This document shows, piece by piece, positions 25,484 through 34,573 of a DNA stretch of 54,996 nucleotides. The notes under the pieces are model-generated. The model was not told the DNA's origin. It worked only from the letters and a program-made list of their open reading frames with translations, and did no database searches. Made by a program: the position numbers and the translations under genes. How positions within the stretch are numbered: position 1 is the stretch's first letter; every line of letters begins with the position of its first letter. This DNA comes from Balneolales bacterium (GTDB taxonomy: Bacteria; Bacteroidota; Rhodothermia; Balneolales; Natronogracilivirgulaceae): positions 1 through 54,996 of the forward strand of contig SLOL01000156.1 of the NCBI GenBank assembly GCA_007132495.1. The letters are read 5' to 3'.

Positions 25484-25715
25484 AACAGGTACTGACCCGG
25501 AGACTCTTTGTGGTAATATTGAGCGTTTTTGATCAGAATGAATGATAAAGTGTAACATAGAGGCAATGAGGTTAATTGATGTTTATCCGTATACCAATCG
25601 GAAATTTTGCCGTAATGCAGGATTATATAGTGCCAATTGGATAATACTAAAGTATTTTACCTTTGCGATACCTTCCTGTTATATAGCAATGAAGGAAAAT
25701 TACATAACTTTTACT

Positions 25716-27029
25716 ATGAAACCGCTGAGATTTTACCGCCCAAAATTCATCACTCCTTATGTAGTGTTATTCCTCATATCCGGACTTTTTTTCGGCTTTG
25801 CACCTACTGTTCAAGCACAATTGGTTTCTGCGGAATCTTATGAGCTCAGGGTTGCACCGGATCTGTGGTTTAATGCGGTTGACGGAGTTCAGGTGGGTGT
25901 CCGCTTCCGGGGTGAAGATCCGCGAACGTTTCTGGACGGACCGCACCGGCTGAACGGTGGCTTCAGCATCGGTACGCGTTTTCCCGACGTACCGGTCTCC
26001 TACGATCTCTCTTATGTCCACCCCATTGATGCCATATCGCGTCGCAACAGTGAGGGGGCTTTTTCCCTGTTCAGCAGTGTGCGTGCCGGATTACATCATC
26101 ATGAAACCGGATTCCGCAAACGCTGGCAGCCCGGCTTTGATGAATTCGTGTCACTGGACTTGCATGTCATGGGTGGTTTTTACCGCCGGTTTGATAACGA
26201 TTATCTTTTGTATGAATCACTGTGGCAGGATGATCCGGTGTATTATCTGCGAACCCGCATTCGCAAAAGAGACCGGAATGCACTGGGACGCTGGACGCTC
26301 TCTCTTTCCGCCATATCCGGTGTACCCGGCGGATCGGGTTCGGACTATGTCGATTTTCAGGGTCAGCCGGCCGACCGCCCCGAAGCTCTTGGAATGGAAG
26401 GATTATTCGGCCAAATTCATCTGCAGGCACTGCAGCAAATTGAGATATCCTCCCGATTTTATGTACGCTCACGCCTTTTTGCCGGTACGTCCTCCAATGC
26501 GCTACCCGGGGAACACCGCTATCTGGCATCCGATGCTGCTGCATTTGACAGGATCGATTCCCGCTTGACCCGGGCCAGGGGAACGGTTCCACAGGGATGG
26601 ATGGAATCCGGATGGGTACACATACCGGGCGGACCCGGACTGAGGGGATTTACCTTTCAGACAACGGAACAACTGGAGCAGGGATTAACAGCATGGATTC
26701 AACACGCATTAGCTTTTAATCTCGATGTTTATTATCCCAATCCGCTCAACGCCCTGTTATCCGGTATACCCTATATGGGCGACCTTTTAAGGTTGGAGTC
26801 CTATCTCTTTTCTGATGCAGGATTTCTGAATGAGCAGTCAGAGTGGCAGGATCTCAAGTTTAATGCCGGAGCCGGCTTTATGTTATCTCTGAATATCCCT
26901 GATTACCTGGGACAGGACAGGGGTTTTTTCATTCGTTACGATCTTCCGCTTTGGCTCTCCGATGCCTCCGGGGAGGAGAATTTTAAAATCAGACACATCC
27001 TGGGCCTGGGGAGTGTATATCGGTTCTGA
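25716..27029 (+). CDS. Predicted outer-membrane beta-barrel protein
   Basis: A 437-residue protein with a signal peptide ending APTVQAQ and alternating aromatic/polar strands typical of a beta barrel. Near residue 308 GGPGLRGF resembles the (V/L)RG(F/Y) motif in loop 6 of Omp85/surface-antigen barrels, and the last strand ends in Tyr-Arg-Phe, the usual C-terminal signature. No POTRA domains are visible, so it would be a barrel-only relative. The frame is open to 25542, with ATGs at 25689 and 25716; the latter gives the cleanest signal peptide. Function is unknown; Omp85 relationship is inference. Confidence 0.65.
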   Translation: MKPLRFYRPKFITPYVVLFLISGLFFGFAPTVQAQLVSAESYELRVAPDLWFNAVDGVQVGVRFRGEDPRTFLDGPHRLNGGFSIGTRFPDVPVSYDLSYVHPIDAISRRNSEGAFSLFSSVRAGLHHHETGFRKRWQPGFDEFVSLDLHVMGGFYRRFDNDYLLYESLWQDDPVYYLRTRIRKRDRNALGRWTLSLSAISGVPGGSGSDYVDFQGQPADRPEALGMEGLFGQIHLQALQQIEISSRFYVRSRLFAGTSSNALPGEHRYLASDAAAFDRIDSRLTRARGTVPQGWMESGWVHIPGGPGLRGFTFQTTEQLEQGLTAWIQHALAFNLDVYYPNPLNALLSGIPYMGDLLRLESYLFSDAGFLNEQSEWQDLKFNAGAGFMLSLNIPDYLGQDRGFFIRYDLPLWLSDASGEENFKIRHILGLGSVYRF

Positions 27030-27095: not shown

Positions 27096-28493
27096 TTAGT
27101 CCTGATCCGGTTTAGGCTTGTTCGGTTTTAACTGAGTAATAAGAACGGCTGCGATCAGGCATGCAATGCCCGCCGTCCAGAATGCAAGCCGGTAATCACC
27201 GAGGGCAAAGACTTTTTCGAGCAAGACACCTTCCACCGGGCATCGGGTGTAGTAAGGTATATGGTCGACGACCTGCATCAGTCTGGCCGCCAGATAGGGT
27301 CCTGCCAGTCCGCCGACACCGTAAGCGGTAAACATCCAGCCGTAATTGGCACCGATATGTTTCGTACCGAAGAAGTCGGCGGTCACTGCCGGGTATAGTG
27401 CCAGATAGCCGCCGAAACACAGACCGACAACACTGATGCCGGTCAGGTAGAGTGGATAAACTCGCATCCAGTCCAGTGTCAGCATCGCAACCCCGCACAG
27501 GACGAACATGATCGCCAAAGTGGTTCTGCGATCGAGGGTATCGGAGACTTTACCCCACAAAATGCGTCCGGCGGAATTGAATATGGCCAATACGGAGACG
27601 GCGACAGCTCCTGCGCCGGATACACTGAGAAAAGCTTCCGCCGAAACGGGCGTGGACATGGATTCAAGTGCGAAAGACTGCCATATCGGAGAGGCTTTCA
27701 TGATGATCAGGAGTCCCGCAGTGCAACCGGCAAAATAGGTAATCCAAAGCACCCAGAAGGCCGGCGTTTTCAGCATTTCCGATGGAGAATAATTGACATT
27801 TTGTGCATTTGCCTGGGTTCCTGTTTCAGGAGGTGTCCATCCCGGCGGGGAATAACCTTCCGGGGGATTGCGAAGCAGTTGTGCACCACCTGTTACTACG
27901 ACAAGAAAAATGATACCAAGAATCAAGAATGTATTGAAAACACCAACATTCGGCATTTGAAATAGTGCCGCATTAAACAGTTGATAGGGATCCTCACAGA
28001 CGAGTGACTGTGCCAGCGGTGCAAAGAAAAACGCACCGGCTCCAAATCCCGCAACGGCCAGTCCGGTGATCAGTCCGCGTTTGTCCGGGAACCATTTGAC
28101 GCAGGTAGCTATCGGGCATACATATGCGACACCAATTCCTATACCTCCCAGTACGGAATAGGTTATAATCAGCCATACAAGAGCTGTTGTGGGTTCAAAC
28201 TCCCCGGCAAAACGCGCAAGGATGAGTCCGCTTCCAAGAATAATGCCCCCTGCCGTGGCTACAATCCGGGGACCAAGCCGGTCCTGGATGCGTCCGCCGA
28301 CAATTACAGCGAGGGCAAATGCCGCAAGGACAATTTGTGCCGGTAATGTAACCTGGGTTTCTGTCCACTCCGGAAAAGCCTCTAAAAGCGGTGTCTGAAA
28401 TACACTCCAGATATACACTGCGCCGAGGCTGATTTGAATAACCAGCGCCCCGACAACTACCCACCATCGGTTCATAACATGCTTTGCGTTCAT
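27096..28493 (-). CDS. OFA-family MFS transporter (oxalate/formate antiporter-like)
   Basis: A 465-residue membrane protein with 12 predicted helices. It starts MNAKHVMNRWWVVVGALVIQISLGAVYIWSVF, in part, the typical opening of OFA-family carriers, and has GGRIQDRLGPRIVATAGG in loop 2-3, KWFPDKRGLITGLAVAGFGAGAFFFAPL and NYGWMFTAYGVGGLAGP. OFA carriers move small carboxylates such as oxalate, formate, lactate or pyruvate. The ATG at 28493 has a good ribosome-binding site (GGGAGGGG about eight bases upstream), which rules against the TTG at 28511. It is downstream of acs on the same strand, but a strong terminator lies between them. Confidence 0.88.
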   Translation of the reverse strand: MNAKHVMNRWWVVVGALVIQISLGAVYIWSVFQTPLLEAFPEWTETQVTLPAQIVLAAFALAVIVGGRIQDRLGPRIVATAGGIILGSGLILARFAGEFEPTTALVWLIITYSVLGGIGIGVAYVCPIATCVKWFPDKRGLITGLAVAGFGAGAFFFAPLAQSLVCEDPYQLFNAALFQMPNVGVFNTFLILGIIFLVVVTGGAQLLRNPPEGYSPPGWTPPETGTQANAQNVNYSPSEMLKTPAFWVLWITYFAGCTAGLLIIMKASPIWQSFALESMSTPVSAEAFLSVSGAGAVAVSVLAIFNSAGRILWGKVSDTLDRRTTLAIMFVLCGVAMLTLDWMRVYPLYLTGISVVGLCFGGYLALYPAVTADFFGTKHIGANYGWMFTAYGVGGLAGPYLAARLMQVVDHIPYYTRCPVEGVLLEKVFALGDYRLAFWTAGIACLIAAVLITQLKPNKPKPDQD

Positions 28494-28604
28494 ACGAATT
28501 TCCCCTCCCAAGGAATTTTAGAGGTGTACAGCGAGGGTGATGCATCTTCATTAAACGGCGATGCAGAGGTAATAATAATTTGGTAGCGTTAGCAGATTAA
28601 TAAA

Positions 28605-28642
28605 ATCGGGGTGGATAAACCCCGCAAACGGTTTATCCACCC
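28605..28642 (-). terminator. Intrinsic terminator downstream of acs
   Basis: On the minus strand GGGTGGATAAACC and GGTTTATCCACCC form a perfect 13-base stem with an eight-base loop, followed by CGATTTTATT. It lies 31 bases after the acs stop and fits a rho-independent terminator well, separating acs from the OFA transporter. Confidence 0.75.
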
Positions 28643-28673
28643 GAACTGCTTGATAGAACAAACAACCAATAAT

Positions 28674-30656
28674 TTACTTTCCGCGATTGGCGATAAGGCT
28701 TTCGACCACTCCGGGATCGGCCAGCGTTGAGGTGTCACCCAGGTTGCTGGTGTCTTTTTCAGCGATTTTGCGGAGGATTCGTCTCATGATTTTACCCGAT
28801 CGCGTTTTCGGCAGAGATGGGGCAAATTGAATGGCCTCCGGAGTTGCAATCGGACCGATCTCCTTGCGTACGTGCTTGATCAGCTCTTCTTTCAGCTCAT
28901 CGCTTTCCTCAATGCCTTCATTGAGAGTGACATAGGCATAGAGTCCCTGTCCTTTGATCTCGTGCGGGACGGGAGTAACCGCTGCCTCGGCCACTTTGGC
29001 ATGGCTGACCAGCGCACTTTCCACCTCTGCGGTACCGATACGGTGTCCGGAGACGTTAACGACATCGTCTATGCGTCCCATAAGCCAGTAATCGCCGTCA
29101 TCATCTATGCGACAACCATCTCCGGTGAAGTAGAGATCTTCAAATATGGAAAAATAGGTATCAATGAAGCGGTCATGGTCACCCCACATGGTGCGCATCA
29201 TGCCTGGCCATGGTTTGCGGATACAGAGTTTGCCGCCTTCGTTGAGGTCACATTCTGTGCCGTCATCACGCAACAACACCGGGGCAACGCCGAAATACGG
29301 TTTGGAGGCACTTCCCGGTTTAAGTGACATGGCACCGGGCAGGGGAGTAATCATGAAGCCGCCGGTCTCGGTTTGCCACCAGGTATCCATAATCGGACAG
29401 CGTTCACGCCCGACATTTTTGAAGTACCACATCCACGCTTCGGGATTGATCGGCTCGCCGACCGATCCCAGAATCCTGAGGGAATCCAGCTTGTATTTCA
29501 TCACCCATTCGTCCCCTTGACGCATAAGTGCGCGTATGGCGGTGGGTGCCGTGTAAAAGGATGTCACTTTGAATTTATCACATATATGCCAGAATCGTCC
29601 GGGATCAGGGTATGTCGGCACTCCTTCAAACATCAGGCTGGTCGTGCCATTGGCCAACGGACCGTACACGATGTAGCTGTGACCGGTTACCCAGCCGATA
29701 TCGGCTGTACACCAGTAGATTTCATCTTCTTGTACATTGAAGACGTGTTTGTGGGTCAGCGCCACTTGAAGCAGGTAACCGCCGGTTGTATGGACCACCC
29801 CCTTGGGCTTGCCGGTAGATCCGGACGTATAGAGAATGAATAACGGATCTTCGGCATTCATCTTTTCCGGTGGGCAATCGGGGTCGGCGTTTGCCATCTC
29901 TTCATGATACCAGAGATCACGCCCTTCTTCCATGTTGCATGGTTCGTCATTGACCTTGACCACCACCACGTTCTCAATGGTCGGGCAGTCTTCAAGGGCT
30001 TCGTCACTGATTTTTTTCAGGGGGATATGCTTGCCACCCCGCAGGGAGACATTGGATGTTATCAGCATTTTGCAGTCGGAGTCATTGACACGGCCTTTAA
30101 TAGCATCGGCGCTGAAACCGCCGAATATAACCGAGTGAATAGCTCCGATCCGCGTACAGGCCAGCATGACTATGGTGAGTTCCGGAACCATCGGCATATA
30201 AATGGCGATGCGGTCGCCTTTTTGAATTCCCTTATCCTTGAGGACATTCGCAAATTTGCCGACCTCTTTGTGCAGTTCCTTGAAAGTGAATTTTTTTACA
30301 TTATTTTCGTCTTCCCCCTGCCAGAGGATGGCGGTTTTATTTTCACGGGAAGTTCCCATATGCCGGTCAAGGCAGTTGTATGAGACGTTTAATTCACCAT
30401 CCTCAAACCAGGTGTGTTTAATGATGCGCTTTTTGGTGTTCCAGGTGTATTCAAGAGATTTTGTTGGAAATGTAAACCAATCCAACTCCCTGGCCTGTTC
30501 CAGCCAAAAACCGTCAGGGTCGTTGATGGAACGGTCCCACATATCCTTGTATTGATCCATCGATTTGATCCATGCATTTTTCCGAATATTTTCCGGAGGT
30601 GGAAAAATGCGGGATTCGGACGTTAATGATTGCATGCCTGATTTGTTCTCTGCCAT
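28674..30656 (-). CDS. acs: Acetyl-CoA synthetase (AMP-forming)
   Basis: Activates acetate to acetyl-CoA through acetyl-AMP. The 660-residue protein is of usual length and has YTSGSTGKPKGVVHT (phosphate-binding loop), GEPINPEAW, MDTWWQTETGG, YFTGDGCRIDDDGDYWLMGRIDDV in part, NVSGHRIGTAEVES and PKTRSGKIMRRILRKIA, whose first Lys after SG is the lysine that family members acetylate to switch the enzyme off. The W in the WWQTE block is the residue that limits the pocket to acetate. Its ATG has TTAGGGG nearby. The next gene, after a terminator, is an OFA carboxylate carrier. Confidence 0.97.
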   Translation of the reverse strand: MAENKSGMQSLTSESRIFPPPENIRKNAWIKSMDQYKDMWDRSINDPDGFWLEQARELDWFTFPTKSLEYTWNTKKRIIKHTWFEDGELNVSYNCLDRHMGTSRENKTAILWQGEDENNVKKFTFKELHKEVGKFANVLKDKGIQKGDRIAIYMPMVPELTIVMLACTRIGAIHSVIFGGFSADAIKGRVNDSDCKMLITSNVSLRGGKHIPLKKISDEALEDCPTIENVVVVKVNDEPCNMEEGRDLWYHEEMANADPDCPPEKMNAEDPLFILYTSGSTGKPKGVVHTTGGYLLQVALTHKHVFNVQEDEIYWCTADIGWVTGHSYIVYGPLANGTTSLMFEGVPTYPDPGRFWHICDKFKVTSFYTAPTAIRALMRQGDEWVMKYKLDSLRILGSVGEPINPEAWMWYFKNVGRERCPIMDTWWQTETGGFMITPLPGAMSLKPGSASKPYFGVAPVLLRDDGTECDLNEGGKLCIRKPWPGMMRTMWGDHDRFIDTYFSIFEDLYFTGDGCRIDDDGDYWLMGRIDDVVNVSGHRIGTAEVESALVSHAKVAEAAVTPVPHEIKGQGLYAYVTLNEGIEESDELKEELIKHVRKEIGPIATPEAIQFAPSLPKTRSGKIMRRILRKIAEKDTSNLGDTSTLADPGVVESLIANRGK

Positions 30657-31064: not shown

Positions 31065-32927
31065 GTGACACCGTATATTACTACTGTTTTTCATGCCTTT
31101 CAGGTTGGTTTCGCAAGTTTATTTCGGAATTACAGTTCCCTTGTCTTGAAGGTTCTTATGGCTTGTGTGATTGCCAGGGTATGTACAGGATGCACCACAT
31201 CCGCATGGGTTGTTAAGGAGGAACCGACACCGGACCCCGATTCGGAGGTGGTGGTATCCGAAGAACGCCTTTTTGTTCCGGCTGCCACACCTACTCCCCA
31301 GAGTCCGGTACTGTCACTGGATTTTGTGATGGAGCGGCAATTGCAGTACAACAGGCATCTGGTTTCTGAAAGATATATTCAGCGTTACCGTCCCAGATAT
31401 GGTTATATGACGCTTGGATTGGCGGGTATGGGATTTGGAGTTTATTTTTCCAACTTTTCCAGGAATGGTGCTGATCAACTCTCGGACCGGGAAAGGATTA
31501 TCCTGAACGCAGCTTCTGCCGGTCTTGGAGCCGCCGCTTTTATGTCGATGAAGCCGGTTGGAGAGCCAAGACCGGCCGGTGAGCGGCGTTTGCTGCAGCA
31601 AATGGATACGGTGGTTCAAAATGATACCATCCCCGCTTCACTGACGGAAGAAGAGGCCGCCCGGCTTACCATGGTCCGTGGTCAGGATACGCTGATCACC
31701 GAAAAGCAGATACCGATCCGGGAGAACAGGGTGTCCATTCACCTGGGGCAACAGGCTGGATTTAAGCAACTTCCCATCAGTGATACAACGGGATTGGACG
31801 TACAGGTTCAGTATCAGGAGATTACTTTCAACCGACATTATCCGGTACCTGATTTCATGCAGAAGTTTGTGGAGGTTGTCAATTCCGGGGTTCCTCTCCG
31901 GTCGGCGCCGGCTATTCTGACGAATAATATTATCAGACATGTAGAAGCCGAAAGCAGGTTTCCACTTTTGACTGAAGTGGATGATCGTTGGTACAGGATA
32001 CTGAGATCGGATGGTCCGGCTTATGTCCTGAAAGAGCATACCCGGCAAATCTGGCAGATGACAGATACGGCAGATATTGAAGAGTTTGTGGTACAAGCCG
32101 ATGAACCGGTGTTCGGGGATCTCGAAATAGAGCGGGATCTGCCGGATAACCGCCGGAGTAATCCCGACGGCATCGCCATTGTAATTATTAATTCCGATTA
32201 TCGTGAACCGGTCAGATCACTGCCCTATGCATCAAGAACAGGGGAGTTGGCGGCCTTGTATCTGAATCGGGTCATGGGATATTATTCAGACAACATCCTC
32301 GTCTTTGAAAATATGACCGGTGGGGAGATGCAGCAGTTGCTGGCCGAGAGCGATTCCCTTATGATTGGCGGCCGGCACCTGAACATGGATGAGTCCGATC
32401 TGTTCGTCTATTATTTCGGTCATGCTTTTACAGATGAAGATGACCGCCGCTATTTGCTTCCCGTGGATTATGATCCCGGTGAAATAGATCAACAGCTCAT
32501 ACCTCTGGGAGAAATTGCTGAAACCCTGGGGAAAATCAGAGCCCGGCAAACGGTGCTGGTACTGGATACAGACTGGTCACGGGGCTCTGTATTCGGATTC
32601 TCGAGCCGGCCGGAAATCCGGTCGCCTCAGCCGCAGCTGGATGCACTAGCTTCTGCTCTGCCACCGGAATCCAGATCAAGGAGTGCAGTCTTCTGGGCAG
32701 CACAACCGGGTCAGGTTTCCGAACCCTATTCCGGAATGAATGGACGCCGGGCCTATCCCTATAACATCTTTACCTGGCACTTTTTTGAAGCATTACAGGA
32801 GGGCGCACAAACAACCGGGGACATTGAACAATACCTTCAGCGAAACGTGCCGTTCACTTCCCGCAGATTACATGACAGAGCTCAGGATCCCGGTTTCTCG
32901 GGTAACAGAGATTTGGTCCTGCCATAA
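31065..32927 (+). CDS. Lipoprotein with SH3-like and inactive caspase-like domains
   Basis: A 620-residue envelope protein. An N-terminal hydrophobic stretch ends in CTGC (Cys43), a non-canonical lipobox; the GTG start keeps this signal whole. Residues 115-160 contain two glycine-rich hydrophobic segments. Residues 265-330 look like a bacterial SH3 domain (VNSGVPLRSAPA, then VDDRWYRIL). Residues 370-580 follow a caspase-like C14 fold: IAIVIINSDY, YYFGHAF with the catalytic-type His453, and LVLDTDWSRG. In active members that last block reads LDxCHSG; here Asp503 and Trp504 replace Cys and His, so the protease should be dead. The later WAAQPGQ and NIFTWHFFEALQEG segments are kept. Neighbours are unrelated; partner unknown. 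Confidence 0.7.
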   Translation: MTPYITTVFHAFQVGFASLFRNYSSLVLKVLMACVIARVCTGCTTSAWVVKEEPTPDPDSEVVVSEERLFVPAATPTPQSPVLSLDFVMERQLQYNRHLVSERYIQRYRPRYGYMTLGLAGMGFGVYFSNFSRNGADQLSDRERIILNAASAGLGAAAFMSMKPVGEPRPAGERRLLQQMDTVVQNDTIPASLTEEEAARLTMVRGQDTLITEKQIPIRENRVSIHLGQQAGFKQLPISDTTGLDVQVQYQEITFNRHYPVPDFMQKFVEVVNSGVPLRSAPAILTNNIIRHVEAESRFPLLTEVDDRWYRILRSDGPAYVLKEHTRQIWQMTDTADIEEFVVQADEPVFGDLEIERDLPDNRRSNPDGIAIVIINSDYREPVRSLPYASRTGELAALYLNRVMGYYSDNILVFENMTGGEMQQLLAESDSLMIGGRHLNMDESDLFVYYFGHAFTDEDDRRYLLPVDYDPGEIDQQLIPLGEIAETLGKIRARQTVLVLDTDWSRGSVFGFSSRPEIRSPQPQLDALASALPPESRSRSAVFWAAQPGQVSEPYSGMNGRRAYPYNIFTWHFFEALQEGAQTTGDIEQYLQRNVPFTSRRLHDRAQDPGFSGNRDLVLP

Positions 32928-33054: not shown

Positions 33055-33080
33055 CCGGGAAACGGTTCCCGGCGTCTTTT
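33055..33080 (+). terminator. Hairpin upstream of sufB (terminator or attenuator)
   Basis: CCGGGAA and TTCCCGG form a perfect seven-base stem with a four-base loop, followed by CGTCTTTT. It lies 58 bases before sufB and 128 after the pseudocaspase stop. A weak -7-like box (TATATTTAG) at 32957-32965 lies between the pseudocaspase stop and this hairpin. It either ends the pseudocaspase transcript or attenuates suf transcription. Confidence 0.5.
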
Positions 33081-33130
33081 ATCAAACTACAGCAGAATCG
33101 GAACACCTGCCAAATTAATTGTTTTCCATT

Positions 33131-34573
33131 ATGAGTGATACCCAAACCATAGAGAGCATGGTCAAGCAGCCGTACAAGTACGGTTTCAAGACCAATGTTG
33201 AATACGACTACTTCCCGAAAGGGTTGAATGAAGATATCGTCAACATGATTTCCGATATCAAGGAAGAGCCGGATTTCCTGCGTGAATTTCGTCTGAAAGC
33301 CTATCGCAACTGGAAGACGATGAAGGATCCGCTCTGGGCGAATATCAACTATCCGAAAATCAATTACGACGACATCCAGTTTTACTCGTCACCCAAGAAA
33401 AAGCCTCAGCTTGACAGCCTCGATGAGGTGGATCCTGAGATACTGGAAACCTATGAGAAGCTGGGTATCCCCCTTTCAGAACAGAAAATGCTGGCCGGAG
33501 TGGCTGTTGATGCGGTATTTGACAGTGTTTCGGTTGCAACAACATTCAAGGAAAAGCTGGCTGAAGCGGGTGTGATTTTCTGCTCCTTATCCGAGGCGGT
33601 GCAGAAGTATCCGGATCTGATCAAAGAATATATGGGATCGGTGGTTCCTTATAACGATAACTTCTTTGCTGCGATGAACTCTGCGGTCTTTTCCGACGGC
33701 TCGTTCTGCTACGTGCCGAAAGGGGTTGTGAGCCCGATGGAACTGTCCACCTACTTCCGGATCAATAACGAGGAGTCGGGTCAGTTTGAGCGAACGCTCA
33801 TCGTGGCCGAAGAAGACAGTTTCGTCAGTTACCTGGAAGGGTGCACCGCGCCGATGTTCAGCAAAAACCAGCTGCACGCCGCTGTGGTTGAACTCGTGGC
33901 ACTGGACAATGCCCAGATCAAATACTCCACCGTGCAGAACTGGTATTCCGGTAACGAAAAAGGTGTAGGCGGTATCTTTAACTTTGTAACCAAACGGGGG
34001 CTCTGCAAGGGTGACCATTCCAAGATTTCGTGGACCCAGGTGGAGACCGGCTCCGCCATCACCTGGAAATACCCCAGTGTGATCATGAAAGGAGATAACT
34101 CGACCGGTGAGTTTTACTCCGTTGCGGTGACCAATGATAAAATGGAAGCCGACACCGGCACCAAAATGATCCACCTTGGAAAGAATACCAACAGCACCAT
34201 CATCTCCAAGGGAATCGCCGCAGGTGAATCGCAAAACAGCTATCGCGGTTTGGTGAAAATCGGGCCGAATGCCAAGAACTCCCGTAACTATTCGGTGTGT
34301 GACTCCATGCTGATCGGTGACCGCTGCGGAGCGCACACGTTCCCGTATCTGGAAGCCAAAAACAACTCTTCCAGCGTAGAACACGAGGCCACCACTTCCA
34401 AAATCGGGGAAGATCAGATCTTCTACCTGCAGCAGCGTGGCCTGGACGAAGAGAATGCCGTCTCGCTGATTATCAACGGCTTCTGTAAAGAGGTCTTCAA
34501 AGAGCTGCCGATGGAATTTGCTGTGGAAGCCATTAAACTGCTGGGTATCAAGCTTGAAGGCAGTGTCGGTTGA
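33131..34573 (+). CDS. sufB: Fe-S cluster assembly scaffold SufB
   Basis: Core of the SufBC2D scaffold on which Fe-S clusters are built. The 480-residue protein has the SufB-specific [21 protein letters not shown], the [12 protein letters not shown] block with a conserved Cys, [32 protein letters not shown], in part, and the closing [17 protein letters not shown]. The TTG at 33119 is dismissed; the ATG at 33131 starts [11 protein letters not shown]. It opens a suf operon that continues with sufC after 90 bases. Confidence 0.96.

Follow-up and report, generated by a model that had tools for sequence, protein, structure and literature searches.

Does a lipoprotein of the bacterial envelope that ends in a caspase-like domain, in which an aspartate stands at the place of the catalytic cysteine, still act as a protease, or has the fold been retained for another role? 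This question is raised by a gene in a stretch of 54,996 nucleotides from a Balneolales bacterium (GenBank assembly GCA_007132495.1, contig SLOL01000156.1), hereafter called the window. Prokaryotic proteins with a p20-type domain and a substituted catalytic dyad have been defined as pseudo-orthocaspases; they account for 858 of 9,994 orthocaspases, and 90% of them are found in Alphaproteobacteria and Cyanobacteria (PMC6426788). In Bacteroidetes, 10 of 1,078 sequences belong to this group (PMC6426788). Our literature search found no paper linking Balneolaceae with caspase.

Gene and domain organization

The gene, of which the window genome has a single copy, encodes a protein with several distinct elements (Table 1). 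A preliminary description of the locus had proposed that the product is probably lipid-anchored and that an SH3-like domain is joined to the caspase-like C-terminus. Judged from the sequence, the predicted lipid anchor is supported by a lipobox cysteine, Cys43, which follows the hydrophobic signal and is retained in all homologues covering the lipobox. In these homologues, the preceding residue is mostly Gly, Ser or Ala, and the lipobox of the window protein is atypical in having a Cys at position -3. Position +2 is occupied by Thr or Ser and not by Asp, which makes the outer membrane the most likely location.

Table 1. Features of the pseudocaspase gene and of its surroundings in the window
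Feature	Position	Strand	Remarks
Barrel-like protein gene	25542..27029	+	secreted, strand-rich, probably outer-membrane barrel; candidate partner
Pseudocaspase lipoprotein gene	31065..32927	+	620 aa, uninterrupted ORF, putative GTG start
Type II signal peptide (predicted), residues 1-42	31065..31190	+	hydrophobic at 25-43, KD ~1.9
Cys43, predicted to be lipidated	31191..31193	+	residue 1 of the mature protein; Cys in 104/104 homologues covering the site
Hydrophobic hairpin of two helices (112-130, 141-160)	31398..31544	+	AF2 secondary structure
SH3b-like domain, residues 274-324	31884..32036	+	SH3_3 and profile matches
Caspase-fold domain, residues 366-620	32160..32924	+	profile and structure evidence
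His453, catalytic-His position, in YYFGHAF (449-455)	32421..32423	+	alignment, AF2, hhalign
Asp501, by position the S1-pocket Asp of C14B proteases	32565..32567	+	two residues before the Cys position
Asp503, replacing the catalytic Cys	32571..32573	+	codon GAC; LDTDWSRG at 500-507
Conserved C-terminal motif NVPFTSRRLHDRAQDPGFSG (594-613)	32844..32903	+	columns rank with the best conserved of the family
sufB-type gene opening the suf operon	33119..34573	+	downstream; Pfam SUFBD_core; conserved synteny

The AF2 model places the helical hairpin between two beta-strands of around 29 residues, with pLDDT values mostly above 80. The hydrophobicity of the two helices is conserved among 104 homologues (KD19 medians of 1.34 and 1.19). 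This Gly/Ala-rich, family-conserved segment (residues 112-160) constitutes a second, helical membrane-seeking element, which is unusual for a lipoprotein. The SH3-like domain scores 12.5 bits with SH3_3 in the window protein, below the threshold of 27; other members of the family match SH3_3 with E values down to 3.5e-6, and the family profile aligns its SH3-like region with residues 93-159 of the NlpC/P60 chain 6bim (E 0.0013). These matches favour the proposed linkage of a putative SH3b domain to the C-terminal domain.

The C-terminal domain has a caspase fold

The caspase-like framework attributed to the C-terminal domain was confirmed by several profile-based and structural comparisons. 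NCBIfam NF047832 matches residues 371-583 with an E value of 1.6e-8, its 34 bits falling far short of the curated cut-off of 140, and Pfam Peptidase_C14 matches six of the 14 close homologues, with E values down to 2.5e-5. Searches with the window protein alone gave neither a PF00656 match in Pfam, the curated cut-off not being reached, nor a caspase match with phmmer against the PDB; profiles alone revealed the relation. Using hhalign, the family was aligned with four intact C14 domains from the same order and class over 234 columns (99.8%, E 1.1e-27). An AF2 model built from an alignment of 16 sequences (mean pLDDT 82.7) predicts a caspase-like fold, and a Foldseek search of the PDB with this model identified the MALT1 paracaspase as the best match (E 1.9e-10, TM 0.68 on the target), followed by metacaspases and legumain. 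In the model, the strands 445-456 and 495-503 terminate near His453 and at Asp503, respectively, which are the places of the caspase dyad: His453 closes the third core strand and Asp503 the fourth. Beyond the dead site, the model has further strands and helices, which correspond to the small-subunit half.

State of the catalytic dyad

Alignment with the intact C14 proteins encoded at the loci L083, L084 and L100, which carry SGHG and DACFSGAS motifs, places their His at His453 and their Cys at Asp503. Thus, the window protein keeps the His and has lost the Cys of the dyad, as the preliminary description had stated, and the catalytic position is not matched by a Cys from its vicinity either. 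The same description had read Trp504 as the replacement of a second His; this reading has to be corrected, since the nearest intact relatives have DACFSG rather than DxCHSG, so that Trp504 replaces a Phe and hence another aromatic residue. That position 503 is Asp throughout the lineage holds for the window's own family, where His453 and Asp503 occur together in 17 of 17 members, and fails for the order as a whole. Among the 104 pseudocaspases with this site, the residue is Asp in 67, Glu in 20, Gln in six, Ser in four, Asn and Phe in two each, His, Ile and Met in one each, and never Cys; two Cys-bearing rows of the alignment (L124 and L161), which are intact C14 proteases and come from genomes outside the order, are not part of the 104. 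Outside the window's family, the His position is mostly occupied by Tyr (53) or Phe (23). In a tree calculated without the two dyad columns, the pseudocaspases are separated from the intact C14 proteins with support values of 86/83, the sole exception being the long-branch row L081. This tree, whose root is not established, fits a course of events in which the Cys would have been lost early and the His later.

Distribution, conservation and selection

A scan of genome contigs with the single sequence gave no match, and an alignment-based scan identified 15 loci. With a profile of 14 homologues, the gene was found in 106 of the 129 Balneolales genomes and in 76 of the 84 good-quality ones. Almost all of these have a single full-length copy that no stop codon interrupts, and the named relatives come from Balneolales and Balneolaceae genomes. 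The only matches outside the order, in 245 genomes of the class, are two weak ones, both to ordinary C14 proteases. One of these loci (L124, G238:C5:147000-151500) has two neighbouring ORFs in the same orientation: one codes for a C14 caspase with PEGA-like repeats behind it, the other for a C14-like protein (YFAGHG, LDACR) whose C-terminal part is formylglycine-enzyme-like. Within the order, the pseudocaspase gene is missing from one family, f3, which shows that the order does not depend on it. Intact C14 proteins (SGHG, DACFSGASGSG) were detected by the family-profile search in three genomes of the order, all of them Balneolaceae (L083, G038:C3; L084, G046:C3; L100, G042:C1); L083 additionally contains YCF48/BNR repeats and CARDB domains. 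The window genome, which is 93% complete, has no Pfam Peptidase_C14 match.

Among the 104 sequences, Cys43, Trp48, Trp309 and Trp330 are the top-conserved columns, and conservation is likewise highest in the C-terminal half, with a mean of 2.40 bits (NVPFTSRRLHDRAQ, including the TSRRLHDRxQ region). Conservation is lowest in the segment 471-540 with the dead site (1.20 bits). Asp501 within this segment is Asp in 102 and Glu in two of the 104 sequences. It corresponds by position to Asp211 of the Trypanosoma brucei metacaspase 2 (TbMC2), which we take to lie at -2 from the catalytic Cys. Asp211 of TbMC2 is an S1-pocket residue (PMC6426788). The dN/dS ratio of the caspase domain is approximately 0.03 to 0.17 (NG86, computed for close pairs whose dS was usable). 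A protease gene in decay and without function, which the loss of the catalytic residue might bring to mind, is thus practically ruled out by the intact full-length frames in 106 of 129 genomes and by dN/dS values well below 0.2.

Gene neighbourhood and a barrel-like neighbour

In Balneolales, genes for a NUDIX protein, an exported barrel-like protein, AckA, the pseudocaspase, an EamA permease, Pta and the suf operon recur in this order, and several of them overlap or stand a few bases apart. The barrel-like gene is located upstream of the pseudocaspase gene in 27 of 35 loci compared and is present in 109 of 129 Balneolales genomes. In the window's lineage, genes for an MFS transporter (27096-28511, minus strand) and an acetyl-CoA synthetase (28674-30656, minus strand) lie between the two, and other lineages have ackA at the place of this pair (27096-30656). 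The suf operon downstream is probably a unit separate from the pseudocaspase gene; a terminator-like site at 33055-33072 is within chance expectation. For the barrel-like protein, neither a Pfam family nor a solved relative was found by sequence, and its AF2 model (pLDDT 41.7) is too poor for a fold search. The protein carries a GGPGLRGF/LRGY motif. An LRGY-type motif recalls loop 6 of Omp85, and the barrel-like protein is possibly Omp85-like. An obligatory two-gene module was rejected: the f3 loci examined keep the barrel-like gene and are empty at the usual place of the pseudocaspase gene, and the genus g28 shows the reverse. It is plausible that the barrel-like protein is an envelope partner of the pseudocaspase.

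Comparison with caspase relatives

The window protein combines a prokaryotic p20-type domain with a substituted dyad and in this respect matches the definition of pseudo-orthocaspases (PMC6426788), a group also marked by the lack of a p10 domain and of proteolytic activity. Like other bacterial members of this group, the Balneolales proteins have a caspase fold in which the His-Cys dyad is replaced, with a frequent exchange of His for Tyr or Phe, and retain the S1-type acidic residue; a single-copy, lineage-wide occurrence is also common to some clades of pseudo-orthocaspases. The dyads described so far are YS, YN, YA, FS, YG, QC and HA (Klemencic et al. 2019, PMC6426788), whereas the Balneolales family has His, Tyr or Phe together with Asp or Glu and adds an SH3b domain, a lipid anchor and an N-terminal ribbon-hairpin. 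With peptidase family C14 (PF00656, NF047832; L083, L084 and L100), the Balneolales family shares the fold and strand order, and with its C14 relatives also an N-terminal (D/E)IExD(I/L)P extension and a C-terminal RRLHxRxQ region. The intact relatives, however, have SGHG and DACFSG motifs and other architectures, such as the YCF48/CARDB and caspase domains of L083, whereas the Balneolales family is devoid of the Cys. The closest solved folds, MALT1 paracaspase and plant metacaspases (PDB 3v4o and 8a53), share 13-16% identity and, unlike the Balneolales family, are active eukaryotic Cys proteases. In Synechocystis, deletion of the pseudo-orthocaspase SyOC led to greater oxidative stress tolerance (PMC7889975).

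Proposed function and alternative readings

We consider it probable that the protein is an envelope pseudo-orthocaspase, a lipoprotein that serves for binding or as a scaffold and not for catalysis. It would be exported by Sec, processed at Cys43 and anchored in the membrane, most likely the outer membrane, facing the periplasm. The extended beta-ribbon with its hydrophobic hairpin and the SH3b domain would present the C-terminal caspase fold, and the SH3b domain probably contacts peptidoglycan or a cell-wall peptide. The caspase domain is not expected to cut, since all members lack the nucleophile and most of them also lack the His; instead, it may have become a fixed binding module, in which the S1-type Asp501 and the conserved C-terminal half recognize a partner or a peptide. 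The binding or sensing role put forward in the preliminary description fits the observed conservation and selection.

A role as an enzyme that uses the pair His453/Asp503, together with Asp501, for instance in metal-dependent or acid hydrolysis, would accord with the invariance of both residues in the window's own family, where many other columns of the caspase domain vary, and with their predicted position at the strand ends at which caspases seat the dyad. Elsewhere among the pseudocaspases, however, the His is exchanged for Tyr, Phe, Ser and others and the Asp for Glu, Gln, Ser, Asn or Phe, and within the domain, conservation is at its lowest in the segment with the dead Cys site. We know of no caspase-fold enzyme with an Asp nucleophile and regard this reading as highly improbable. 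Animal pseudocaspases bind and control active proteases, for example in mixed dimers, and the same could be imagined here, as some Balneolaceae genomes hold intact C14 genes. Such control of a C14 partner is improbable, since the window genome has no Peptidase_C14 match and the family-profile search brought up intact relatives in only three genomes of the order, versus a near-universal pseudocaspase.

A specific form of the binding or scaffold role would be that of an accessory lipoprotein of a barrel-type transporter or insertase in the outer membrane, for which the caspase fold would provide the docking site. The barrel-like gene adjoins the pseudocaspase gene or is one gene away in many genera, where the genes overlap or stand close together, and the resemblance of its motif to Omp85 loop 6 would suit this arrangement. 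The two genes do not obligatorily co-occur, though, as f3 and g28 illustrate, and a barrel fold is not established by the AF2 model or by sequence comparison; we therefore regard the transporter or insertase accessory as rather unlikely, if worth keeping in mind. It is likewise a tentative thought, with a limited chance of being right, that the non-catalytic binding lipoprotein represents an order-wide periplasmic pseudoprotease receptor, whose caspase fold would have become a recognition module for peptides or the cell wall, combined with a lipid anchor, an SH3b domain and a membrane-seeking hairpin.

Significance

Pseudo-orthocaspases as such are already known; the Balneolales family stands apart by its substitution, its domain architecture and its lineage. 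Little is understood of what pseudo-orthocaspases do, and they are known mainly from Cyanobacteria and Alphaproteobacteria. The Balneolales example is order-wide, normally single-copy and, as predicted, lipid-anchored, has Asp or Glu at most Cys positions and is under clear selection. Furthermore, it provides an evolutionary series, with the His kept in one family and lost elsewhere, and the order also contains intact C14 relatives. No C14 protease is recognizable in the window genome. The family offers a clean setting in which to study the role of a caspase fold that has given up catalysis.
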